This document shows positions 1 to 18,292 of a DNA stretch of 64,000 nucleotides, piece by piece (position 1 is the stretch's first letter; each line of letters begins with the position of its first letter). The stretch is taken from the NCBI GenBank assembly GCA_027605045.1, contig JAQFWX010000006.1, positions 868,001 through 932,000 on the forward strand, read 5' to 3'. The notes under the pieces are model-generated. The model was not told the origin of the DNA, searched no databases, and saw nothing but the letters and a program-made list of their open reading frames with translations. The DNA is from Phallus indusiatus. Taxonomy: Eukaryota > Basidiomycota > Agaricomycetes > Phallales > Phallaceae. The translations under genes and the position numbers were made by a program.

Positions 1-465
1 AAGTCTCAGTCAAGTTCAAGTCAAGTTCAGCTCAAGTCAAGTTTCGCCTCTAGTCTATTTCTACGCTCATATCTATATCTTTGGATTAACTCTGAGTGAG
101 GTCTCGGAGTATAAACTAGCGATTTTCATTTCAATTTTATTGTCGCTTCACTAACTCGCAGAAGGATAACTGTCATCATTGATTGTAGATCCTCCGTACT
201 AAGTCGCAACTCAAGTCTTTTGCCGACGCTTGTTCATTATATCACTTGCACATTTGCATACGATCTCTCCTAGTCGTTGCAGTTGTTGTTGGTGTTTTGT
301 CTGTGTTGGTTTCGATATCAGCGCATACATCCCTACATCCCCATTCCCCATCTACTCGTTCTCTCATTACCCGAAATCAGCACCAGGACCCGCTCCACGG
401 TAGACTAACGACCTCTATAATCAAATATCTCGTAGTTATTCCGATCACTTATAGCCGGCATACAC
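1..465. other. AT/low-complexity stretch without a supported gene
   Basis: The first 45 bases are a loose tandem of the hexamer-like unit TCAAGT/TCAAGTT. An open frame runs over 246-521 with a hydrophobic start followed by Ser/Thr/His-rich sequence, but it lacks a good ATG context, crosses the splice-like signals of the following gene and resembles nothing I recognise. It may be the 5' part of the DUF6532-like gene that follows. Confidence 0.4.
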
Positions 466-1356
466 TAAGCTATATTCATCGGATCGTTACACCGCGCCCA
501 TATCGCACGCACCCGCAATAAGTGGAAAAGCTTGGCGCAGGCTATTGTAAGTGGTCCTGCATATGATTTAGGCAATGACCCCGATGCTATCAAGGTGCGT
601 GCTTCTTGGCTATTGGAGGACACGCGGTGGGTATATGGTAGCATCGAGGGTGGCGAAGAAGGAACGAGAGTAAGTTATTGCTGACCTGTCTTGATCAATA
701 CTAACTCAGTTGGTAGGAACGGCGGCGACGGCCTTTCGGACATCCCACTATAGCCACCATCATTGTTGGGGCGGCTTATGAAGCCAAGGATGGTGTGGCA
801 CGTTTGTGCCCGGACAAGCTCAATCCCATTCCACTTTGCATGATTGCATTTACCGCAGTAACGGTAAGGCTCAATCGATTTAATAAAATCTGCTAATTAT
901 TCACTCCAGATCATGAATGCCCTCCACGAGTATGCACTGAATGACGGCCACAAAACTAGCGTCGACTTCGGGGCAACCAAATATGCAGAACACTATGCAA
1001 CTCTTTTGGATAATATCAAAGACGTCGCGAAACTGAAGCCTCAACAATGCCTTGAGCTTCGGCGAGAAATTCACGACCGAGGGGCGAACAAACTCGAGCG
1101 ACCATTCAGCAATTGTTTGCAGACTCAAAAATCCAAGTTCGTCATCGAAGACTCGGATGATGAAGATGGTGAGGCGCCGGATGGATTTGATAATGATGCC
1201 GGGTCTATAGGTATCAATGAGCGTTCTGAGGAACATTTGCCAGAGGAAGAGAGTGGAAGTGAACAGGAAGACATTAGCTTCCCAGATGATCAGGATGATG
1301 ACTTTGAAAGCCAGGATGAAGGAGGTCTAATCGGTGATAATATAGTTCAAATTTGA
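466..1356 (+). CDS. DUF6532-like protein, 5' end unresolved
   Basis: Three exons join in frame: about 466-669, 718-863 and 910-1356. Introns start GTAAG/GTAAGG and end TAG/CAG. The joined product begins near an RNKWKSLAQAI segment, passes through HPTIATIIVGAAYEA and IALAHEYA-like helices (here ALHEYALNDGHK at the start of the last exon), and ends in a strongly acidic tail. The order 'HP.I..ii', 'm.iAfta v..al.ey..G' and 'f....Y...Y...l' resembles the Agaricomycete DUF6532 domain, whose function is unknown. A stop lies just upstream in frame and no initiator ATG is seen, so the gene is either 5'-truncated, pseudogenised or has an upstream exon I cannot place. Confidence 0.4.
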
Positions 1357-1439
1357 TTGTATTGCTTGTATGTACTATGCAATGCAAAATAGCGTTGGAG
1401 CAATGGCTCGTCCTAAACAAACAATTAATCCTGAACGAA

Positions 1440-1560
1440 CGGGTAATTCTGAACCAGCAAATCCTCCTGAAGAAGCAAAGCATTTTGAACCAGTGAACCA
1501 TCTTGAACCAGCGAATCCTCCCGAATCAGCGAATCCTCCTGAATCAGCGAATCCTCCTGG
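1440..1560 (+). repeat. 18-nt minisatellite, coding-frame Glu-x-Ala-Asn-Pro-Pro repeat
   Basis: About five imperfect copies of an 18-nt unit (consensus GAATCAGCGAATCCTCCT) stand in a row. In one frame they encode ESANPP/EPANPP repeats inside an 88-codon open frame (1370-1636). It lies directly after the acidic tail of the DUF6532-like gene and could be an alternatively spliced extension of it or noncoding. Unit length is a multiple of three, so copy-number change keeps frame. Confidence 0.6.
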
Positions 1561-1705
1561 AGCACTGATGACTTATATACATCCGCTACTCCGTGGAGCC
1601 CTGAGGAGTGCCAAGGACACGGCAAGATCGGGCTAGGTGCTCCATGCCTCTCCCCAGGTCCAGACACTTCAGGAGGCGCTGGAGCACGCTTCCCAGATCA
1701 CTGAT

Positions 1706-2681
1706 GTAGTACTACCCGCTTTGCTGTCATTTATGGCGATAAGGCGGAATTTCGGGATTGCGAATCGGATGACGGAATAGGGGTAACATTTTTATTCCAC
1801 CCCTCCCATCCCTTTGATGCTGTTTCTGCCACCGAGAAACATCTGGTATGCACGTCAAAGAACGATGTCAATATATACGATCTAACAGGAGCAGGAGTGA
1901 GCCCGATATCGTTCTCGCGCGCCAGTGACACTGAATGGAGGGTATCCCTTAATGGGAAATATATGGTATGGATTGATACCGACAGAAACATACAAATCTT
2001 CGACATGGACACCCAATCCTTGCTCACCGTCCTGATAGCGGGCCTCTGTGCTCTAGCGGAACCCGAAGAGTTAGACCGACCAATCGATAACTTTTGGCTC
2101 TCCAATGACTCAAAATGTATTATAACAGAGTCCAGTATGGGGCTCTTAAATATTTGGGACATACAATCCGGGGTCACCAAAACAGTTTCATACCCGACGC
2201 ACTATATGGAGAGCATCGAAACCTTAATTTTGGGCAAAAGGATAATAGTAACTATAACCGGGGAACAATGTTGTGTCTGGGACTTGGATACGCTGGAGAT
2301 AATGTCCGCTCTGTATCGGTACGACGCTCTGTCTCCTGCCGCTAATCCCGGCATCGAGGGATAAGTTTAGGATCACTTATATCCAATGTCACTCACTCAG
2401 TCAGATATACACTCAGAATACCCGCATCCAACAAGTCGGAGATCTTGGAGTACGCATTAATGGCCTGGAAAAAGGCTTCGTTTGAGTGCAATACCTATGT
2501 CCAGACGTATGGATGGTGTTACAACCCTCGGAATGAGCCTATGTTTTGGGTTCCAAACAAGATGAGAAAGCGGTTCTGGCTTCCATGTATGGCGCATATG
2601 CCATATCAAGACTGTACAAAACTAAATTTCACGAACTTTGTACATGGTTCTGATTGGACAAAATGTAAATTGGCACAATGA
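1706..2681 (+). pseudogene. STAND WD40 C-terminal fragment
   Basis: The frame is open from about 1706 to an intron at 2362 (donor GTTTAGG-like region, acceptor CAG before 2419) and on to the terminal exon ending at 2681. It matches the last WD40 blades and tail of STAND gene A. The tail motifs FWVPNKMRKRFWLPCM and LNFTNFVHGSDWTKC are all kept. The NACHT, C2-like and most of the propeller are absent, and no start codon in good context is seen, so it is a 5'-truncated remnant. Relative to gene A it has a different indel in the blade before the SNDSKC motif. Confidence 0.8.
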
Positions 2682-2689
2682 ATCGGGAC

Positions 2690-3290
2690 TATTTAAATAG
2701 TCACGTCTGTGCTAAACACAGTTCCAACGTTCAAATCGGAGGAGTATATTCTCATATAAAAATTATTCCGGCTTTAAATCTGAGCGCAGAGGACTGATTT
2801 TGATGAAAACAGATTCATAAAAATTGAGCCCAAGATGGAGAGTCGAATCAGTATCTCAGAGGACTCCCGAACACGTCATGAGTTTGGCGTGTGGAATGAA
2901 TGATTTGTACCCAAATATTATGAACGGCTTTCATACTATTACCAGATCTTCAAGTTCGTTCCAACTTGATCACGTTGCTGATGACAAAGAACTTGGAAGT
3001 AAGAGGGATGCCCAACACGGAAAATGCGTAAAACAAACCCTAGACCCTAAATTTTTAAAAAATAAACTCCACAACGTAACAAAACATAGTCCAAGCTCCT
3101 ATAAATCGAACATGGCAGTGAGACATTGCGTCGTTACCCAAGTAAAGAGTGACGTCAGTCACATCAAGGTCACACTCAACGACTCGCTCTTGGATATTAT
3201 ACCCGCCATATACTCATGTCAATCATTCCTTGAGGGCGCAGCTTCAAATTTAAACACTCTTGATGTGTTTTATTGGCTGGACCCAAACTT
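2690..3290. other. Duplicated 3' flank, no supported gene
   Basis: This stretch aligns with the 3' flank of STAND gene A (about 13,560-14,170), sharing the segment 'gtctgtgctaaacacag' and the later 'ttcataaaaattgagccca' stretch. An open frame of 173 codons (2824-3345) runs across it into the MsrA pseudogene, but its counterpart in the other copy is not open, so it is unlikely to be a gene. Confidence 0.6.
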
Positions 3291-3299
3291 GTCAATAGA

Positions 3300-3715
3300 A
3301 CCTCAAATTGCTATCTTCGACTCTGGATGCAAGTTTTTGCCATAGGCATCATTACCAGATGTCAGACATAATGTCACTGCGCAGGCTTTTGGGGGAAAAG
3401 AATACATGTTTTTGAAGGTACTTCAAGGTCACCCTTCCTTCGAGGACAACGTCCGAGTATAACCTTCACTTCCGTTTTCCTTCTCTAGCAAGTTACCCTC
3501 CAAAAGAAAACAAGGGCATCATCAGCACCTCATGTGGTGTTTGACCATTTCATCGTCAACTACGTTGAATTAGTCGGTAAGCTTACACGATCTAAAAAAA
3601 GACCTCTTTTTCTCACATTAACCTAGAACTCTTCTACCGCTTTCACGATCCCACAATGTTTAAACATGAAGACAATGACGAAGGCAAAGACAACATTACC
3701 AAGAGAGATCTCCTT
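3300..3715 (+). pseudogene. MsrA pseudogene
   Basis: The sequence matches the enzymatic exons of the intact MsrA fusion at 15,459-15,950. The first active-site motif is changed (FDSGC instead of FGAGC), the exon after it reads FWGKEYMFLK, the following exon is internally deleted after 'IISTS' and the FF/YRFHDPT exon soon frameshifts. The Met-rich first exon is absent. Similarity then jumps directly into the HNHP gene, showing a fused deletion of roughly 800 bases. No functional reductase can be made from this copy. Confidence 0.8.
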
Positions 3716-3719
3716 CTCC

Positions 3720-5333
3720 AAATCCGCGTCCTATTACTTGGTTGTCCGCAGACGCAGCTATTCCCGTTGGTATCAGTCTTCAAACCGATCCGTCTGTAGG
3801 CACTTCCTCAGTACCAATCCCGTACACGTACTCGGAGATTTCTACGTACACTGATGTTGTATGCACTCCCGGAGATACGACTTCGCTAGTTCCTAGAAAG
3901 CGACTTCACTTTTCCAATACAGATGGAGATCGAGACGGAGATACAACTGCAACCGAAGTCATCCATGAATACCCTTCGGAAGAAAGCCACAATCCATTAC
4001 TGAAGCGCAATGGTACCAAACAAGCCATGTACTCCGCCGCAGGCTATATACAATTAACACACCAAACCTGGGTCCACAGAATTGAATATGTCAAAGAGAT
4101 TCTGCTCCATTGGCTTGTTCCCGCTTGGCGACTCGGTTGCTTGTCTTCTTGACCTTATCGGACAATCCAGTTGCTGGTGTATAGGATCAAGCGTACAACA
4201 AGGTCGGCCCTTATCGAGCAAAAGGTACGTATCTTTCTTCTTTCGAAAGCATGTTCCGTGTTTATCAATGAGTTCTCTTTATCAGTGCACAGACGCATGG
4301 TCGGGCGGAACAGGAGGTTCATTACCCAAGGCTACTACGGTTCCACCTCTTGGGCTCTTGGGCCCGCTGTGAAGTGTCAGAAAATGGCACATGATTGTCG
4401 AGGCGTTTTCCTTTGTTCTTGTGTTGATCCAGAGTTCTGGAAAGATTAAAATCGCGAAGATCGTGATAAAAACTCTGAGTATCCGCTTTTCGCGACTGGG
4501 AACGCGGGCGAGTAGTCTGGACGCTTGTCTGAACCGGATCGTAGCAGCTTTGAACGAGCTGTTAGGTACGTTGAAGAGGCCGGTATTGTACCTTTTGTGT
4601 TAGCGTTTCTAATTCTCATTTCGATTTCAGGTTTTACAATGCGATGGTCAAGGAGAGATGTTGGGGCGAAAATGGGAATTTCTCACGCAAACCGGAATAT
4701 AAGTCATACGATGATATCTTAAGTCATACACGCTTGTGGGACCGAGGCTCTAGTCAAAATCTGATCAAGGTTCAGGGCCCTCAGTTCTTTAAAAGCCAGC
4801 ATGCTGCTTGTATAGGCTGCTCTATGGTTCAAACGAGGGGCGCTTTTATCACGAAATACCATCAGACGTGGATCTTTCTCTGCTAATCAAACTATCCGCT
4901 ATGCGTCGAACTAATCTTTCAGATACGGTCGTCTTTATCCGGTCGTGTACTTTCACAGTTCCGCCGGCGCCGCGAACAGGGAACAGACAGAAATACTGTC
5001 GTACGTGACCCTATCTACACATGTCAACTGATACCAACTAGTATCTGTTTTTGTCTAGCTCGTATTCACGTAGAAAACGGCGATATATTCGAAGCCACTA
5101 TGTGGCAAGGTCCCTGTCCCTGTCCTGCAAAAATCACCATCATGTCGCCTATAGACCATGAGATTCGTAAAGCAGTGATTGTCCTCGCTGTCATCCCGCA
5201 CAACCATCCTTTCTGTCCTTGGGATAAACAGACGAGGAAAGCGAAAGCTGCGGAAAGAATGATGCATAATGGAAGCGAAGATGGTAGCGGTGATGTGGGT
5301 GGTGAAGGCGATTTTGACGATGAGGCTGCTTAA
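3720..5333 (+). pseudogene. HNHP zinc-protein pseudogene
   Basis: This is the decayed copy of the gene at 16,345-18,292. The segments ADAAIP, SVPIPYTYSE, KRNGTKQAMYSAAGYIQL, CTDAWSGGTGGSL and the terminal IPHNHPFCPWDK are all recognisable. A small deletion near 4120 shifts the frame and leads to a stop at 4152, and further shifts lie near 4440 and 4600. The last exon (about 5060-5333) remains open and ends with the same acidic DFDDEAA tail. Confidence 0.8.
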
Positions 5334-5860
5334 ACGGTCAATGTTCCGTTTCTCGCAGTAGAACTTGAAGAGGCACTGCAACGTTGTCATTGAGTCGGAT
5401 TTCACATCGTCCATCTTCCGTCTACGCGTCTACCTTGTTCATTCCAAGACATGGAGGAGGGGTATTAGTGGTGTCATCAAACGGCCATCGGTTTAACAAA
5501 TGCTTACCCGCAAAGGATTACTCTTTTTCAAAAAAATGGCCTTACCACTAAATCTCAAGCAACTACTAGACTGTTATCGTCTGGGATGATGCAATCAAGA
5601 CAACGTTCAAGAAATCGGTATAAATACTTTACAACCGCTGTATATAGATGTGGAGAGAGAATACAGAGCACAAGAAGGCATGTGGTCTGACCATTTTCTG
5701 CTCCTTGGAAAGTTATCGGCAAGTTATCGTCGCTTTGAGCAAGCTTCAGAATCAAGCGCCCAGCTGTCAGGTTATCACCTTGCTCCGCAAGGTCTTCTCC
5801 CTGTCAAAATGCGCAAAGGATACTTGCAGGCACGGATAGTTAGTATCCTGTCGGCTATTG
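5334..5860. other. Duplicated 3' flank of the HNHP gene
   Basis: It matches 18,293-18,850, including 'accttgttcattcca' and 'ccgctaaatg/accactaaatc tcaagcaactact'. Short open frames on both strands are not conserved between the two copies, so I see no supported gene here. Confidence 0.55.
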
Positions 5861-8011: not shown

Positions 8012-11000
8012 ATGGTCATCTCGACGGAAGGTATAAAAATATATGGTAATTTCGGAACGTCTCGTCTAAGGTTCCGGTTTTTCTCATTTGGGATAAAGAT
8101 GTTCGCTTGATCAAACCCCCATCCTTATCGAAACGTACTCCCAAGTTCCAAATAATGATCAAATGCGGTAGCGAAGAGAGAACAAGTACCAAGAGTGCGT
8201 TTAGCAAACGCGATCTCTGCGTAACCTGGAACGGCGAGGCTTTTGTGTTGTATGTATGTCAAATGCTACAATCTATTTCGATGTAGACCTTACATCACAA
8301 TGCAGTTTTGACAAGCTTACGGACGATATTATCCTCACTTTTACTATTTTCCGGGTCCGTCGATTTCCTTGGAACATCGCCATTAGCTCGTGTGAACACC
8401 GAGCCATTGATTTACTCAAGATGCAAAACAGCTCTGCCAGTGGTTAGTTCAATCATCAAAACCATCGCCGTTAGTCTGCTACTTACACATGATCTTAGGT
8501 TCATGTACATTAGATGTTACCGGAAACCGTCAATTGACATTCAAGATTGAGAAATCACTCAATGTCATGTCGGTACGGGAAACCGCAGGAAACCTACCGA
8601 ATCGGGAAATCTCAGCTGAGAATGCCAATTTAATCGTCTCCGCAACGCAGGCCTGCAATGATAATGAGGACGCCTTATCATCGTTTATCAATAAATTTCA
8701 AATTTTTGTAGGAATGGTAGATGATATCGCCGAGGTAAATTTCGTTGGAACACATCTTTATCTTCCTCCAAATGTTTCTTTAGATAAACCCCTATGTAAA
8801 AGTAGCATGGAGTATTTTGTCTATCATTCAGAAGGTAAGAAGCTCATTCTTTTGATCCTTCAAAATCATATATTAATTGTGTTTAGATGACTATCGCGAC
8901 AAAAAACCATTACGGCGACAAAATTCATCCGCTATGTGGAAAGTTGAATGACGTTTACGACTACATTACGGATGCGGGTCGACTACCTGAGCTAACTACG
9001 ACCCAGTCTAAAACGCTTTCTGCAGTGGTTCGTCAAACGACTGAATGCGCGTATTTTATACAAGCATACAGCACCGAAGGCACAGGTTGTGTATCATCTT
9101 CCAATGTCTTTTGATTGTGCAAGCGATTCTGATTCGAGAACCATAGTCAAAAACGTAATGAAAGGAATCAGCGGGAGTGTGGATTACAAAATCCAAGAAT
9201 TCAACGACAAATTTGACGGCCTCATGCAAGCCATGAGGGATATGGTCAATCTTGAAACGAACATTGTGACACTTCGTGTGCCTGAACACGTCGGTGAACT
9301 CGGTATGTCGATATAATCATATGCTATAATCAATCAAAGCTAATGATTTTTCACAAGCTGATTTGACCCTACTCAAAGATATGCACTATAACGGCACTTT
9401 CCCAGTGCCTTGGAAAAGATGCCTACCTGGAACGCGCAAAACACTGATCAATGATATATTGAGGTGTATCAGCGACGACAAATCGCCACAGATTCTGGTT
9501 GTGAGCGGACAAGCAGGAGTAGGGAAATCAGCAATAGCACATACCATCGCTGAAATGTTCAAAGAACAAAATCGACTCGGGTCCATGTTCTGTTTCGACA
9601 GGAGTCTCCCAAACAGGCGCAATTGTCTTTTCAGCACCATATCACGTGACTTGGCAAATGGCGATGCCTCGTGGCGAAGAGAATTGATCAAGACCGTCAA
9701 ACGGAACACTGCGATCCGGGAGACTGAGGATCCCAAAACACAGTTCAATGAATTTATCATCAAGCCTTCGAAGAATGTGACTACTATTGGACCCGTAGTT
9801 ATCGTCGTAGATGCATTAGACGAAAATGGAGATCGCGCTGAACGGGAGAAAATTCTGGAAATTCTCCTCCGCAGATGGACGGAGCTTCCGAAAAATTATC
9901 GCCTGATTGTCACCACTCGCCCCGAACAGGATATAGAAGCTCAATCTAAAAGATTAAATATTTCATGTAAACGCATGGGTGATATTGACGCGGAGGAAAC
10001 GCGTTCCGATATTAAAGCCTATGTCTCGAAGCGTCTTGCCTCAATTTCATCCATTCTGGACAACATAGACAGAAATTGGCGGGACGTATTAGCAATCCGC
10101 GCCGAAGGGCTTTTCCACTGGGCTCAGACAGCCTGCGCGTTCATTGATACCGGCGTTGAAACTCCTCCAGAGCTCATAAAGGAGAATTGGGAAACTTACA
10201 TTTCAAATAATTCCGACATGTCACTCTACGAACTATACCATCTGATTATCTCGAGTCAATCAGAATGCCGGTCCCCTAGCTTCAAAGAAATGTTCAAGAT
10301 AGTCGTGGGCGGTATTATAACGGCGCGGGTACCTCTCTCGATATACACGCTCCAAAATATCTTCAGTGATGATATTCAGGATATCAGGTCGATACTTTCC
10401 CCATTCAGTTCATTCTTTTCTGGCATTCACAACTCGTCCGAGTTCACTCCAGTACAACCCCTTCACACCTCGCTATTCGATTTTTTCAGGGCCGAAAAAT
10501 TCTTCGAGAGAAACCAACAAAATACCGAAAAGCTTAACGAGTTCTACATCAACACGTCAAATCAAAGTCAGATGACACTCGGTTGTGTCAAATTGATGAA
10601 TCGGATGCTCTGCTTCAATATCTGTCAGCTCGAGACATCACACCGGCGCAATCAGGATGTGCCCGATTTGGATTCGCGCGTCGAGAAAGCCATTCCGGTG
10701 CATCTGTCGTATTCATGTCGGTTCTGGACCTTTCACCTCCAGTCCTCGCCTGTTAATGTGGAGCTCATTCGTGAAGTCCGGAGATTGATGGACGATAATC
10801 TGTTGTATTATTTCGAGGTGCTTAGTCTGTTAAATGCGATTCCGCAAGGTTGCGTAGCAATGAGAGAATTAACGAAATGGTGTAAAGTGGGTGACTCTTT
10901 GCCTGTCACATATGCATAAATGACTGAATAAGGTGGTGGTAGGATGCAGTTCAAGATGACCTAGCTGAGGATGCGATGGATGCACAGGTGTTTGGAATTG

Positions 11001-13479
11001 ATTTTCAAAGCGTAATGACAACAAGCACGCCGCACCTCTATCTCTCCGCACTTCCCTTTACCCCTCGTGATTCATTTGTATCCAGAAGGTATCTTGAGAG
11101 GTATCCTGAGTTGTTCTCGCTCGATGTTGGCCAACCTGTCAGTTCTTCGCACCAAATTGTATTCACGCAAGACAATACACGGCGGATTGCCTTCTCCCCG
11201 AAAGGCAGGTATATGGCGACCAGCACGGTAGACATATTTGATGTATGGGACTACGAAACAGGGGAGAGGATGTTCTGTTCCAAAGATACCAGGTTCCCAC
11301 TAGCTTGCGACGTCGTGTTTTCCCCCAATGGTGAACTGGTTTACTGTTGCTTTGCGGGAGGTGATATCGTAACATGGAATATAACGACAAGGGAAATGGT
11401 AATACAGAAATACAAGGAGGTAGCGGATATTAGTATTCAGCGTTTTAATTGTTCCATTTCTTCGGACGGGTGCTTTGTTGCCTGGCACACGACAAAGGAA
11501 ACACTCCTTTCCGATCGAGAAAGTCGTCGGATCGTCAAACGCTTCGAGACAGGGTGTCTTTTCTCCGCGTTTTCACCCAACGGAAAATGGATTGCCCTTT
11601 ATGGCCACGGGGTGCACATATGGGATACTAGAAATCAAACGCAGCACTGTGTCATGCCCTGCTATCCTTGGGGAAAACCGGCACTCACTGACAATTACGT
11701 TGCTTTTCAAAAAGACAAAACCACGATAGAGATCTGGGATGTACAGAAAATCACCAAAGTCACTGAAATTCAACACGGAAAGGACATCACAGGCCTTTGC
11801 CTTTCCTCTGATGACCAATATCTCCTTGTTATCTCCGACAGCATGATCTCGAATTGGAGTGTGTCTACGGGAAAATTACTCAGTCGATCCTATGAAGACG
11901 AATCCATCGTAATAGAGTGTTTAGGGTTCTCACATGACTCCAAATTAATTGCGTTGCTCTATGGGTCAACACTCCACGTTCAAGAATGGGAAAGATTCAT
12001 AGAACAGGATCGCCGGCTCAACAATGGCATTGTGGAAGTGCACACAGCTTGGCTGCGGGGGTCGTATCTCATTCTTTCCGATGAGACTCGAAAGCACCTC
12101 CAAATTTCGGATGTCACGAAAACGAATACGATTATCTTTCAAACTGGATTTAAGGACTGCAATGTAGCTCTCAGTGTTTCACCTGATGAGGAAAACATGC
12201 GGGTGGCATACTTCACCAGTCGCGGACTCTGTCTCTGGAACAGCAAAGAAGGCGAGATCCTCGTAGACAGAACAGTCCGTTTAGTCACCGCACTTACGTG
12301 GTTGGACAACTATCTTATCTTTGGAGACAACAGAACCATCAAGATATGGGATCTTTGTACCCGCAGAATGAGATCGAGTCGTGGTCCAATAGACTTATCG
12401 TACGAATCCCTTCTCCCCGTGCGAGGCAGTACTACCCGCTTTGCTGTAATTTATGATGGTAAAGTGGAAGTTCGGGATTGCGAATCGGGTGACGGAGTAG
12501 GGGTAACATTTCCATTCCACTCCTCCTATCCCTTTGATACTGTTTTTGTGAACGAGAAACATCTCGTATGCACGTCAGAGAATGGTGTCGATATACACGA
12601 TCTAAAGGGAGCAAGAGTCAGCCCGATCCCATTCCTATGTGGTGTCACTCAATGGAGGGTATCCCTTAATGGGAAATATATGGTATGGATTGATACTGGC
12701 GGAAACATACAAATCTTGGACATGGACACGCAATCCTTGCTCACCGGCCCATCGTTCGAGGATCTCAGTTTCGTCTCTCGTGCACATCCCATCGGGTCGT
12801 TTCAGGAGCGTTCGGGAGACGACGAGATGGCGGGATGTGCTGAAGCGAAACCCAGAAAGTTAGACCGACGAGTCGATAACTTTTGGCTCTCCAATGACTC
12901 GAAATGTATTATAATACTGTCCAGTATGGATACTTTGGGGTCCATGTTCTTAGATATCTGGGACATACAATCCAGGGTCGCCAAAACGGTTTCATACCCG
13001 CTCCATTTGGGGAGTATCAAAACCCTAATTTTGGGCAAAGGGGTAATGGTAGCTATAACCCGTGAGCAATGTTATGTCTGGGACTCGGATACGCTGGAGA
13101 TAATGTCTACTCTGTATAACACTCCTTCGCCCGCCGCTGATAGTTCCGACATTGCTAGGTAAGTCTAGGTTCACTTATATTCAGTTGTGACTCACTGAGA
13201 TATACACGCAGAATACCCCCATCCACCAAGTCGGAGATCTTGGATTACGGATTAATGGCCTGGAAACAAGGTTCGCTTACGTGCACTTCCACTGTCCAGA
13301 CGGATGGATGGTGTAACAGCCCTCGAAATGAGGTTATGTTTTGGGTTCCAGGGAGGATGAGAAAGCGGCTCTGGCTTCCATGCATGGCACATATGCCATA
13401 CCAAGATTGTACAAAATTGAATTTCACAAACTTTGTACATGGTTCTGATTGGACAAAATGTAAATCGGGAAACAACTGA
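8012..13479 (+). CDS. STAND NACHT-WD40 protein, copy A (C2-like region frameshifted)
   Basis: This has the same exon plan as copy B. Exon 1 (TEGIKIY) is followed by a 53-nt intron and a C2-like exon. The helical region runs from 8500, the NACHT exon covers 9361-10890, the WD40 exon 10950-13158 and the tail exon 13212-13479. Walker A is GQAGVGKSAIAHT and Walker B region VVIVVDALDENGD; the propeller has many FSPxGxxxA...WD-like blades. NACHT and WD40 frames are joined by an intron (donor GTGACT at 10891, acceptor GCAG at 10949), so they form one protein. In the C2-like exon about 8235-8275 the frame shifts by a GTAT duplication plus one base compared with B and reaches TAG at 8274. Either the N terminus is lost or translation starts later. 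An in-frame insert of about 30 codons lies in the last blades (12,757-12,858). Probable role: NLR-like intracellular receptor. Confidence 0.8.
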
Positions 13480-14781
13480 CGTCCAAACATTATTCTCAAC
13501 GCATGTAGGTTTACATAATGAATCGGATGTATTTAAATTATATTACCGGAATTTACTTTCACATGTCTGTGCTAAACACAGTTCCAACGTTTAAGTCGGA
13601 GGAGTGTATTGTAATGAAAATTATTTCAGCTTCAAATCTGAGCACAGAGGACTGAAAACACATTCATAAAAATTGAGCCCAAGGCCCCAAAATGGAGAGT
13701 TAAATCAAAACGCATCAGTGGACACCCGAGCGCGTCATGAGTTTGGCGTTCGCCAGGCGGCGTGTGGAATGAATGATTTGTATCCAAATGTTCTGAAAAC
13801 GACTCCTATGAGTATTATCAGACTTTCGTTCTGTGAAGTTGATCAATTTGTTGATGACAAAGACTCGGGGAACTTGAAAAGTAAGAGGGATGCCTGACTT
13901 GGGCGCCTGACACGGAAAATGAGCAAAAAGGCATGTCGATTTATAGGAGTTTGGGCATCTGATATTAGATGTTTTGTTTAAGACTACGTTGTGGAGTCCT
14001 TTTTCAATTATTCCCATGGAACACGGTAAACGTTGTCCAAGTAAGAAGTGACGTCAGTCACATCAAGGTCACATTCGACAACGACTTTTTTGCTCTTAGA
14101 TATTGCTACTATATCTACCATATACACTATAAATCATGCTAATGATTCCTTGAGCACAGCTTCAAATTACAAGACTCTTGGTGCGTTTTAACGGCTGAAG
14201 ATCGACATGACAGCCCGGACATGCTCTTCAAGTTTCTGCTCAGCGAAGGCAAGCTCACGGTTCAGTATGAAGGTTTCAATTGCACTATATATGGAGAAAC
14301 TCGGACCTTTCGGAGGGAATCATCATCAAATTTGCAGGTGGATTGCGTTATCCGAAGTTGCGTAGGAGATCAATTTGTCCCACGACGACTTGCTCCGGGG
14401 CCGGACTCCCTCCATCCAGACTGGCTGCGGAGGATTGACTACATCAGTCAACAACCATTTCTATAGTTTTCTCTTGATTATCTGTATTGCTTTTTCGCAA
14501 CCTTGGCCTCCGTTGTCGGGCAGGATGATGATGATGTTGATGCAATGTAAGCACGTCATTTGTCTTGTTATGCGTTTAAAAGCCTTTCGAGGTTGATCGG
14601 TGCTAGCCATCAACTCAGCGTTTGGTTTCTTCCCTTTCTACTCAAGTCTCCTTTAATTATTGACTCTTCCCACTTCTACTTCTACTTTTACTTTTTCTGA
14701 TTTATCGTTTTAACATCCTGCTCTCCTCTTTGATCATCCAAACTCGTTGACCTTGACTTCATTCTTCAACTTTATTCCATA
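13480..14781. other. Intergenic stretch between STAND A and MsrA
   Basis: The first 700 bases match the 3' flank of the WD40 fragment at 2690-3300. The remaining part holds a 81-codon open frame (14,221-14,466) that I cannot identify. The last 150 bases are pyrimidine-rich (runs such as CTTCTACTTCTACTTTTACTTT), a common feature of core promoters in filamentous fungi, just before the MsrA ATG. Confidence 0.5.
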
Positions 14782-16156
14782 ATGCTCAGCAAACTCAGAT
14801 CCATTAAATCTTCGCTTCACTTGAAGCACTTCAGACACTCCAGCAAGGGCATGAAAGACGAAATGGCTATGGAGAAGAAAGAGCCGATGATGGATGATAT
14901 GTCCATGTCTACTGCCCCAAAGTCGGATGGCATGATGTCGCCGTCCGATATGTCTTCTGATATGTCTAACAAAGATATGTCAACGATGTCGTCAAAAGAT
15001 GGCATGATGATGGAGGGCGAAAACGCCATGACCAAAGGTCAAGATGGCGCGATGCCAATGAAGGACACCATGTCCAGTGGAATGATGAAGGATGGAATGA
15101 CGGAGACTATGGGAATGAAGGACAATATGATAAAAGATGGAATGAACGAATCCATGGCAATGAAGGACGATATGATGAAAAAAGACATGGCAATGGAGAC
15201 CGATACTATGAATAAAGCCGATATGACGATGGAGAATGGCACGATGAAGAAAGATGGTATGGCAATGGAAAGTGGCATGATGAAAAACGATAACATGGGA
15301 ATGGATCATATGTCCATGGACAAGAGTGCAGCCATGTCGAATGCCATGGATATGAAAAATATGGCTTCGGAAATGTCAGCTGACATGATGAAAAAACCAG
15401 GTAAAGCCAGTTTGCTCTTATCTGACGAAAGGAAGCTAAGCTTAAACTTTGTCAACAGAACCTCAAGTTGCCATCTTCGGCGCTGGATGTAAGTTTTCGC
15501 CATGGTCATCATTACCAGATGTCAAACCTGATCTCATTGCACAGGCTTCTGGGGGACAGAACACATGTTTTTGAAGGTACTTCAAAGTCACCCCTCTTTC
15601 CGCGACAACGTCCGAGTCTGACCTTTACTTGCGTTTTCCTTCTCTAGCATTACCCTCCGAAAGAGAACAAGGGTATCATCAGTACCTCTGTGGGAACCAT
15701 TAATGGTGTCGAAGATGTCACAAATCCATCAAAAGACACCATGAAAGGCGCAGGATCCGCTGAAGCCTGTCGTGTAGTATTTGATCCATCCATCGTCAGC
15801 TACGCCGAATTAGTCGGTAAGCTTATACGATCTATAAAAAAACTCTTTAATTCTCACATTACCTTAATCTAGAATTCTTCTACCGTTTTCATGATCCCAC
15901 AATGTTAAACCATCAAGGGAATGACAAAGGCAAAGACTACCGTTCAGCCATCTTCACTATCTCGGATGAACAGGTCGAGATTGCTCGACGTGTCTCTGCG
16001 GAAGTTCAAGCCAAGCATTTCGATCCGAAAGGACAAACAATCGTTACAAAGATTGAGACTGCCGGATCATGGCGCGAATCACCAGCTCATCATCAACAGT
16101 ATTTGTCCAAGAATCCGAATGGCTACCATTGTTATACCCACAAGTTGCATTGGTGA
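14782..16156 (+). CDS. msrA: Methionine-rich domain fused to peptide methionine sulfoxide reductase A
   Basis: Five exons (14782-15400, 15459-15488, 15545-15576, 15648-15816, 15873-16156) total 1134 nt and give a 377-residue protein. Residues 1-23 are basic and acid-free (LSKLRSIKSSLHLKHFRH), like a mitochondrial presequence. Residues 24-206 are a low-complexity domain of Met, Lys, Asp, Ser and Gly; I count 53 Met in 206 residues, in MxM, MM and MKDxM patterns. Residues 208-377 are MsrA: PQVAIFGAGCFWGTEHMFLK with the catalytic Cys codon split by an intron, AEACRVVFDPSIVSYAELVEFFYRFHDP, NDKGKDYRSAIF, HHQQYLSKNPNGYHCYTH. The enzyme reduces methionine-S-sulfoxide with thioredoxin as usual donor. 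A stand-alone fungal MsrA is about 170-200 residues, so the first half is extra. The fused domain could be an oxidisable methionine sink or a Cu(I)-binding Met cluster (inference). Confidence 0.88.
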
Positions 16157-16344: not shown

Positions 16345-18292
16345 ATGAATGCACTGCCTGCCAATGTTAGCAGTTCTACTTCTTCACATCTCTCTCCTTC
16401 CGCTTCAACTTCAATCTCAACGTCGAGCCCGGGATCAGACTCACTCGAGCAACTTGTGCAAGCTGTAGGCGAAGAAGTTGTCAGAGCCTATCGTGATAAG
16501 GCAAGGATAAAGATAGTACTAGTCAACAGACCGTGTTCATTGATCTTTTTTTGCGACACAGTATATCCCATTCCAAGTTTTTCAAGCATGCCCAACTATT
16601 TATTCGTATGAAAATGCGCCAAAATGGTTGAATTTTGACAAGTTCGCTTATTTTGTGGCGCAATATTTTCAAGAGCGATCTCCTCCTCCAAGTCCGCATC
16701 CTATTACTTCGTCGTCCGCAGACGCAGCTATTCCCATTGGTATCAATCTTCAAACCGATCCGTCAGTGGGCAACTCCTCAGTACCAATCCCGTACACGTA
16801 CTCGGAGACCTCTCCGTACACTGATGCCGTATGCACTCCCGGAGACACGACTTCGTTAGTGCCCAGGAAGCGACCTCACTTCTCCAATATAGATGAAGAT
16901 AGAGATGCAACTGCAACCGAAGTCATACTCGATTATCGTCATCCAGAAGAAAGCCAGAACCCATTACTGAAGCGCAATAGTACCAAACAAGCCATGTACT
17001 CCGCCGCAGGCTATATACAACTAACACGCCAAAGTTGGGTCAACAGAATTGAATATTTCAAAGAGATTCCTCTCCATTGGCGTGTTCCCGCTTCAGGCGA
17101 CTCGGTTGCGTATCTCCTTGACCTATCGGACAATCCAGCCGCTCATGTGTCAGAGAGGACCAAGCGTACAACAATGTCTGCCCTTATCAAGCAAAAGGTA
17201 CGTTCTTCATCCGCTTCTGAAAGCATCTCATGTGTTTATTCAATGAACTCTCTTTCTCAGTGCACAGATGCATGGTCGGGCGGAACAGGAGGTTCATTAA
17301 CCAAAGCTACTACGGTTCCACTTCTAGGGCCCGGTGTGAAGTGTCAGAAAATGGCACATGATTGTCGAGGTGTTTTCCTTTGTTCTCGTGTCGATCCCGA
17401 GCTCTGGAAAGATTACAACCGCGAAGATCGTGATGAAAACTCCGAGTATCCGCTTTTCGCGACTGGGAATGCAGTTGACGGCGAGGAGCCCGGATGCTTG
17501 TCTGAATTGGATCGTAGCAGGTTTGAACGAGCTGTCAGGTACGTTGGAGATTCCTCTTGTGTCAGCGCTTCTAATTCTCATCTCGGTTTCAGGTTTTATA
17601 ATACAATGGTCAAAGAGAGATGTTTCGGTGAAAACGGGAATTGCTCAGGCAAACCGGAATATAAGTCATACGATGCTATTGTAGGTCATACAACCTCGTG
17701 TGACCAAGGCTCTAGTTTAGATCTGATGTTCAGGACCCTCAGTTTCCTAAAAGCCAGCATGCTGCTTGTATAAGCTGCTCTGCCAGCTTACCCTATGGTC
17801 CAAACGAGGGGCACTTTTATCACGAAATACCATCTGACGTGGATCATACTCTCCTAATCAAACTATTCGCTATGCGTCGAACCAATCTTTCAGATACGAT
17901 CGTATTTAACCGGTCGTGTACATTCACAGTTCCGCCACGGACAGGGAACAAACAGAAATACTGTCGTACGTGACCCTATCTACACATGTCGCCTGAAACC
18001 GACCAGTAGCTGCCTTTGTCTAGCTCATATTCACGTGGAAAACGGCGATATATTCGAAGCCACTATGTGGCAGCGTCCTTGTCCTGCAAAAATCACCATT
18101 ATGTCGCCTATAGACCATGAGATTCGTAAAGCGGTGATCGTGCCCGCTGTCATCCCACACAATCATCCTTTCTGTCCTTGGGATAAACGGACGAGGAAAG
18201 CGAAAGCTGCGGAAAGAATGATGCATAATGGAAGCGAAGATGGTAGCGGTGATATGGGTGCTGAAGGCGATTTTGACGACGAGGCTGCTTAA
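16345..18292 (+). CDS. HNHP-type zinc-binding protein of basidiomycete mobile-element style
   Basis: The start at 16345 gives a Ser-rich N terminus (SSSTSSHLSPSAS), then an acidic helix (LEQLVQAVGEEVVRAYRDK). Further exons give an SVPIPYTYSE segment, CTDAWSGGTGGSL, a Cys cluster CQKMAHDCRGVFLCS, then CISCSASLPYGPNEGHFYHE, QKYCPHIHVENGDIFEATMW and RKAVIVPAVIPHNHPFCPWDK. It ends in an acidic tail. Introns at 17196-17260, 17539-17593 and about 17684-17737 were set by frame closure. The Cys/His spacing and the HNHP motif resemble the GCM/WRKY-like N-terminal zinc module found in many Agaricomycete proteins linked to DNA transposons (from memory of the family). The usual long C-terminal part is missing. 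Function unknown; it may bind DNA. Start exon joining near 16510-16672 is uncertain. Confidence 0.55.

Follow-up and report, generated by a model that had tools for sequence, protein, structure and literature searches.

A methionine-rich repeat tail joined to methionine sulfoxide reductase A in the stinkhorn Phallus indusiatus: a candidate rechargeable oxidant sink

Positions 868,001 to 932,000 of contig JAQFWX010000006.1 of the stinkhorn Phallus indusiatus, a stretch of 64,000 nt (GC 43.9%) that we refer to as the window, contain at 14782–16156 on the plus strand a gene in which a methionine-rich part is joined to a methionine sulfoxide reductase A (MsrA) domain; we call this gene and its product the fusion. 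As proposed in a preliminary description of the window, its five exons, separated by four introns that are all of the GT..AG type (Table 1), join in a single frame of 1134 nt with a stop and encode 377 amino acids. The frame opens at 14734, directly after a stop codon, and its first ATG is at 14782. The same description had placed about 206 residues with 53 methionines ahead of a full MsrA domain, which agrees both with the counts (53 methionines in residues 1–206, 3 in the 171-residue MsrA part) and with the domain searches: PMSR (PF01625) is the single Pfam domain of the protein (residues 211–369, E 1.9e-42; 145.6 bits, curated cut-off 23.7), and TIGR00401 is matched as well (136.7 bits, cut-off 108.1). 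The six frames of the window contain 97 stop-free stretches of at least 100 codons; the 100 residues richest in methionine, with 30, lie in exon 1, and the runner-up stretch has 7.

The reductase part retains the catalytic core of an MsrA. The GAGCFW motif noted previously is present, and the alignment described below shows Cys217, Phe218, Trp219, Glu266, Asp301, Tyr306 and Cys370 in place. In the Neisseria enzyme, Glu94 is reported as the acid and Tyr82 or Tyr134 as the proton donor (PMC6210582); the fusion thus has the cysteine of GCFW, the general acid (Glu266) and the counterpart of Tyr134 (Tyr306). Structure prediction gives an MsrA fold, with a predicted local distance difference test score (pLDDT) of at least 90 at 128 residues, mostly in the MsrA domain, and a dip at residues 241–270 that covers a divergent loop.

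The tail (residues 24–206) contains 22 basic and 35 acidic residues and one histidine, and lacks cysteine and aromatic residues. It is predicted to be disordered, with a pLDDT of about 50; a helical tail was set aside, as neither helix nor strand is predicted before residue 200. MxM and MxxM are the classic Cu(I)-binding methionine motifs. Measured against 2000 shuffles of residues 24–206, MM is depleted (8, mean 14.4) and MxxM strongly so (4, mean 14.3; none of the shuffles was as low), and MxM is not enriched (12, mean 14.4), while MKDxM (5 against 0.2) and KDGM (4 against 0.1) lie far above expectation. Consequently, of the MxM, MM and MKDxM patterns stressed in the preliminary description, only the last stands out, and the spacing of the methionines points to the repeat unit, not the classic Cu(I) motifs, as what sets it. 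Since Tandem Repeats Finder detected degenerate units with periods of 18–45 nt in the tail DNA, the tail is likely to have grown by tandem repeats. The first 23 residues (MLSKLRSIKSSLHLKHFRHSSKG) are basic and acid-free, as had been stated (net charge +6, zero acidic residues); their helical moment, however, was equalled or exceeded in 973 of the 2000 shuffles, which leaves the mitochondrial location that had been suggested less supported.

In the 218 proteins from two MsrA searches (120 of 7553 and 120 of 985 matches listed), the densest 60 residues hold 19 methionines in the fusion and at most 8 elsewhere. A search with residues 1–206 for further methionine-rich tails returned only the fusion itself among 76 candidates, word-based searching being weak for low-complexity repeats, and no methionine-rich MsrA fusion is described in the titles and abstract openings of the literature searched.

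A protein identical to the fusion over all 377 residues (P0001) is found in the protein database under the source 'lgn', which we take to stand for Logan assemblies of public reads; it is encoded by three contigs, the longest of 2354 bases. Genomic DNA read without splicing would run into intron 1 and stop at 15492, giving 236 amino acids. This form was not returned by the search with residues 1–206, the length limits of which would admit it; only P0001 came up. Because identity extends over the full length on contigs no longer than 2354 bases, and because the admissible unspliced form was not returned, the database protein is most simply read as the product of spliced cDNA, and hence of one probable mRNA.

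The genome (67.2 Mb, 206 contigs) gave six matches to the tail: the window, a second copy on contig C30 and four truncated copies. The C30 copy, probably the other allele, is also 1134 nt long and has no indels relative to the window copy. The two differ in codons 24–206 by five silent and six amino acid changes (pN/pS, the ratio of amino acid to silent differences per site, 0.21) and in the MsrA part by five silent and one. Within the tail, silent changes exceed the share expected under neutrality (binomial P 0.015), and none of the 11 changes falls in a methionine codon (P 0.025); both values are drawn from few changes. All methionines of the window copy are kept in the C30 copy, which has three more (56 in residues 1–206). 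These differences suggest purifying selection between the two copies, clearest in the enzyme part; together with the database match, they support the single gene with a coding, constrained tail that had been proposed, expressed from one probable mRNA. A third, partial copy, at the start of contig C28, begins inside the gene; a gap of 1 nt in its last exon may be a contig-end error. The four 5'-truncated copies (C1, C78, C126 and C173) are very similar, start near window position 15227 and contain stops within the match; the two that were fetched whole (C1 and C78) have exon indels besides. In the C126 copy, the methionine-rich and MsrA pieces lie about 9.6 kb apart, as after an insertion. Matches to MsrB are found at two places in the genome, one with a basic N-terminus as judged by eye on unspliced sequence.

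The same genome encodes an ordinary MsrA, of 229 amino acids as spliced by us, which is matched with equal score at four places (C27, C78, C172 and C181), two of them near contig ends. Its introns lie at places corresponding to those of the fusion, the first being in phase 1 in both genes, and its first four exons measure 172, 27, 32 and 175 nt, as against 619, 30, 32 and 169 nt. Because the intron places correspond, the methionine-rich part appears to be a leader exon that has become larger rather than an appended second gene; a second gene that came to use this splice site at its end is a possible alternative origin. The N-terminus of the fusion (MLSKLRSIKSSL) resembles by eye some fungal MsrA leaders, such as MLGRLKALRTSL in Clathrus, a resemblance that the ordinary MsrA leader of the same genome (MLRDQLGIPGL) does not share.

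Among the matches listed for a search with the 171-residue domain, an orthologue, Clacol_006823 (P0121), was identified in another stinkhorn, Clathrus columnatus, with 82% identity over 89%, and with 133 of 168 aligned residues identical to the fusion. Its model starts with MSKDMMDKPG, which corresponds to the MSADMMKKP that closes exon 1 of the fusion, and then continues directly with FWG. As its G codon is the product expected from exon 1 spliced directly to exon 3, the 30-nt exon 2 was probably missed in this model. The model of the ordinary Clathrus MsrA (P0012) lacks the same stretch by eye; the absence of the micro-exon with the catalytic cysteine from both Clathrus models is probably an annotation error. 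That annotation relied on ab initio prediction in Funannotate, and RNA-seq is nowhere mentioned in the paper (PMC8830316). The search for the same fusion in other Agaricomycetes that had been suggested therefore yields the Clathrus orthologue, with just nine residues of the methionine-rich exon, and none other among the matches listed.

The first tree was computed without the Clathrus orthologue from 72 of the proteins P0002–P0083; another 10, which had inserts or unusual lengths, were omitted. The fusion remained unplaced in it, on the longest terminal branch (0.78). In approximately unbiased (AU) tests on this tree, neither its grouping with both ordinary stinkhorn sequences (p-AU 0.495) nor that with its own ordinary MsrA (p-AU 0.184) was rejected; the ordinary MsrA groups with that of Clathrus (97/98). 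In a second tree of 44 rows chosen by us, the fusion and the Clathrus orthologue form a 100/100 clade, which stands together with the ordinary MsrA of both species on one side of a branch separating them from 40 others (95/93.7). With a stem of 0.75 changes per site, a Phallus tip of 0.023 and a Clathrus tip of 0.25, the second tree looks like that of a duplicate which, within the stinkhorn line, first changed fast and was held afterwards, at least in Phallus. In addition, an alignment (A1) of P0001 and 70 proteins, chosen from the 119 others that the first MsrA search listed, shows that the active-site surroundings conserved in ordinary fungal MsrA are not those of the fusion, which differs at 11 of 57 columns. 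From these columns and from the separate clade with the Clathrus orthologue, we assign the fusion, on sequence grounds, as a paralogue of ordinary fungal MsrA.

Methionine-rich proteins linked to methionine sulfoxide reductases are described in bacteria. In Brucella, BcrX, a methionine-rich protein of the MXKDX type, shares an operon with a putative Msr system, and this operon is reported to contribute to resistance to hypochlorous acid (HOCl) (PMC8315932); for MrpX, the homologue in Azospira, a role as sacrificial scavenger is described (PMC8315932; PMC5748585). In vitro, MsrA, MsrB or an MsrBA fusion reportedly reduced oxidised methionine-rich proteins (PMC3514235). When we scanned the genomes of prokaryotes with six peptide patterns drawn from 114 tail residues, ten matches came up, one of them encoding a relative: the sole confirmed one is a 96-residue protein of Oxalobacteraceae IMCC9480 (locus L025), which matches TIGR02953 (MXKDX; 79.8 bits, cut-off 41) and the alignment of which with the fusion tail scores 150, above all 1000 shuffles (maximum 108). 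Adjoining its gene are a b-type cytochrome, matched below cut-off, and a molybdopterin enzyme (PF00174, 99 bits) with MsrP as its best NCBIfam match, likewise below cut-off (79.8 against 207); farther along come an ECF (extracytoplasmic function) sigma factor and the anti-sigma factor NrsF, and the genes span 318–4252 of the locus. TIGR02953 did not match the fusion at E up to 1, either with the whole protein or with residues 93–206. Because the tail fails this model, it appears to resemble MXKDX proteins in kind without being a member of the family, and convergence is likely.

The MrpX/BcrX proteins with YedY1/MsrPQ share with the fusion a methionine-rich repeat (units such as MKKDGM in the Oxalobacteraceae protein) linked to an Msr, and a proposed sacrificial oxidation followed by repair; in the fusion the linkage is a common reading frame. 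However, the bacterial systems are periplasmic and consist of separate proteins with a molybdenum MsrP, whereas the fusion is a single eukaryotic polypeptide with a thiol MsrA. Yeast Mxr1 (MsrA; 3pil) and ordinary fungal MsrA are similar to it in predicted fold, in the cysteine of GCFW and in the C-terminal NPxGYxC cysteine, and the ordinary MsrA of its own genome also in intron places, but they have no methionine-rich tail, and the fusion differs at 11 conserved columns. MsrA/MsrB proteins are likewise MsrA fusions, although there the partner is a second enzyme and not a substrate-like tail. Finally, yeast ataxin-2, Pbp1, likewise has a methionine-rich low-complexity region reset by Msr, but the enzyme acts in trans and the region is prion-like, whereas the fusion tail consists of charged repeats.

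Table 1. Features of the fusion gene in window coordinates
Feature	Position	Strand	Description
Leader, codons 1–23	14782..14850	+	Basic, acid-free; resembles by eye the start MLxRLxxLxxSL found in some ordinary Agaricomycete MsrA
Methionine-rich repeat tail, codons 24–206	14851..15399	+	52 of 183 residues methionine; predicted disordered
Exon 1	14782..15400	+	619 nt, phase 1 at end; 172 nt with the same phase in the ordinary paralogue
Intron 1	15401..15458	+	58 nt
Exon 2 (micro-exon)	15459..15488	+	30 nt; remainder of Glu207 codon, PQVAIFGAG, base 1 of catalytic Cys217 codon
Intron 2	15489..15544	+	56 nt; interrupts codon of catalytic Cys217
Exon 3	15545..15576	+	32 nt; remainder of Cys217, then FWGTEHMFLK
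Intron 3	15577..15647	+	71 nt
Exon 4	15648..15816	+	Divergent loop 244–264 and Glu266
Glu266 codon	15762..15764	+	Counterpart of Neisseria MsrA general acid Glu94
Intron 4	15817..15872	+	56 nt
Exon 5	15873..16156	+	Asp301, Tyr306 (15938–15940), resolving-type Cys370 (16130–16132), stop

Elsewhere in the window, a NACHT-type stretch (NPHP3_N, PF24883) followed by a WD40 beta-propeller stretch at 9330–13162 on the plus strand is like a fungal NLR-like (NWD) gene. An open frame just 3' of the fusion gene (16544–17773, plus strand) has no Pfam match; its region is seemingly repeated at 3691–5718, as judged via matches of about 83% between 3691–5718 and the C30 locus.

An antioxidant sink appears to be the best available reading of the fusion, which may well be a tethered, rechargeable sink for oxidants and thus the one-protein counterpart of the bacterial MXKDX/MrpX–Msr systems, a proposal that we make tentatively. 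Of the interpretation offered previously, this retains the antioxidant sink, to which the bacterial parallel lends support, and gives little weight to copper binding, against which the motif spacing speaks. Several observations weigh against the proposal. The 57 columns at which the fusion departs 11 times are conserved in at least 90% of the 70 relatives; among these relatives the largest number of departures is 6, the ordinary MsrA of the same genome has 3, and the 11 of the fusion include the counterpart of Tyr82, which is Thr244. By eye, the Clathrus orthologue shares the state of the fusion at 7 of these 11 columns (one being a missing cysteine) and has another non-consensus letter at 4, including Phe at position 244, a residue that 7 of the 70 relatives also have there. 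Weighing most are two features of the Clathrus model, Asp in place of His357, a histidine invariant in 71 of 71 rows, and the absence of the resolving cysteine at 370; they may indicate altered or lost activity there, and may be gene-model errors or true loss. Moreover, the tail evolves faster than the enzyme between the window and C30 copies, the methionine-rich exon was seen outside its own genome in nine Clathrus residues only, and MsrA repairs the S form of methionine sulfoxide only.

The changed columns, the Clathrus losses, the tandem repeats and the long stem would also fit a relaxed, diverging duplicate, the tail of which is a repeat expansion of little function and the MsrA of which is losing or changing its activity. 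We regard this as unlikely, given the purifying selection between the copies (one amino acid change against five silent ones in the enzyme), the retained core catalytic residues, the short Phallus tip after the stem and the probable transcription and splicing of the gene. A disordered, methionine-rich tail without aromatic residues could instead serve as a redox sensor or condensate switch, self-associating or binding partners when reduced, dissolving on oxidation and being reset by the attached MsrA. Msr acting in trans on the methionine-rich region of yeast Pbp1 offers a precedent (PMC8394241), but with 57 of its 183 residues charged the tail is unlike that prion-like region, and we consider a switch distinctly improbable. 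The copper-binding buffer that had been suggested from MxM/MxxM clusters, in which the attached enzyme would keep methionine ligands of Cu(I) or Ag(I) reduced, draws on the density of methionine and the 12 MxM motifs; as MxxM and MM are depleted in the shuffles and MxM is not enriched, and as the tail has one histidine and no cysteine, we rate it very unlikely. Equally little weight can be given to a gene-model artefact, with separate transcripts or a downstream start that omits the tail: the 52 in-frame ATG codons within the tail could yield shorter forms by leaky scanning, but the same 377-residue protein occurs on short contigs, intron 1 matches that of the ordinary paralogue in position, and the Clathrus model, by eye, also joins the same exon 1 end to an MsrA part.

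Computation supports the gene, its probable spliced product, the constraint on its coding sequence, the predicted MsrA fold with its catalytic core, the duplication and the conserved orthologue, whereas we infer tail oxidation, self-repair, an electron donor, a location and a physiological role. Under the oxidant-sink proposal, an MsrA was duplicated in the stinkhorn line, and the leader exon of one duplicate would have lengthened through tandem repetition to form a disordered tail dense in methionine. The tail methionines would absorb oxidants and become methionine sulfoxide, the S-sulfoxides of which the tethered MsrA would reduce at high local concentration, through attack by Cys217, acid catalysis by Glu266 and resolution by Cys370, with thioredoxin as electron donor. 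A separate MsrB would reduce the R-sulfoxides, and the sink would perhaps be mitochondrial. It is possible, though somewhat less likely than not, that the stinkhorn MsrA was neofunctionalised, its active-site surroundings changing together with the gain of the tail, so that sink and regenerator were united in convergence on MXKDX/Msr.

Whether methionine really works as an antioxidant sink in the cells of eukaryotes has long been asked and is hard to answer, because surface methionines are spread across many proteins. A natural protein in which 52 methionines are gathered in a disordered tail attached to the repair enzyme itself would allow the idea to be tested, as a single tail can be deleted or altered. 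If true, the proposal would show convergence with bacterial hypochlorite-scavenging systems and would supply a ready-made Msr substrate and redox sensor.
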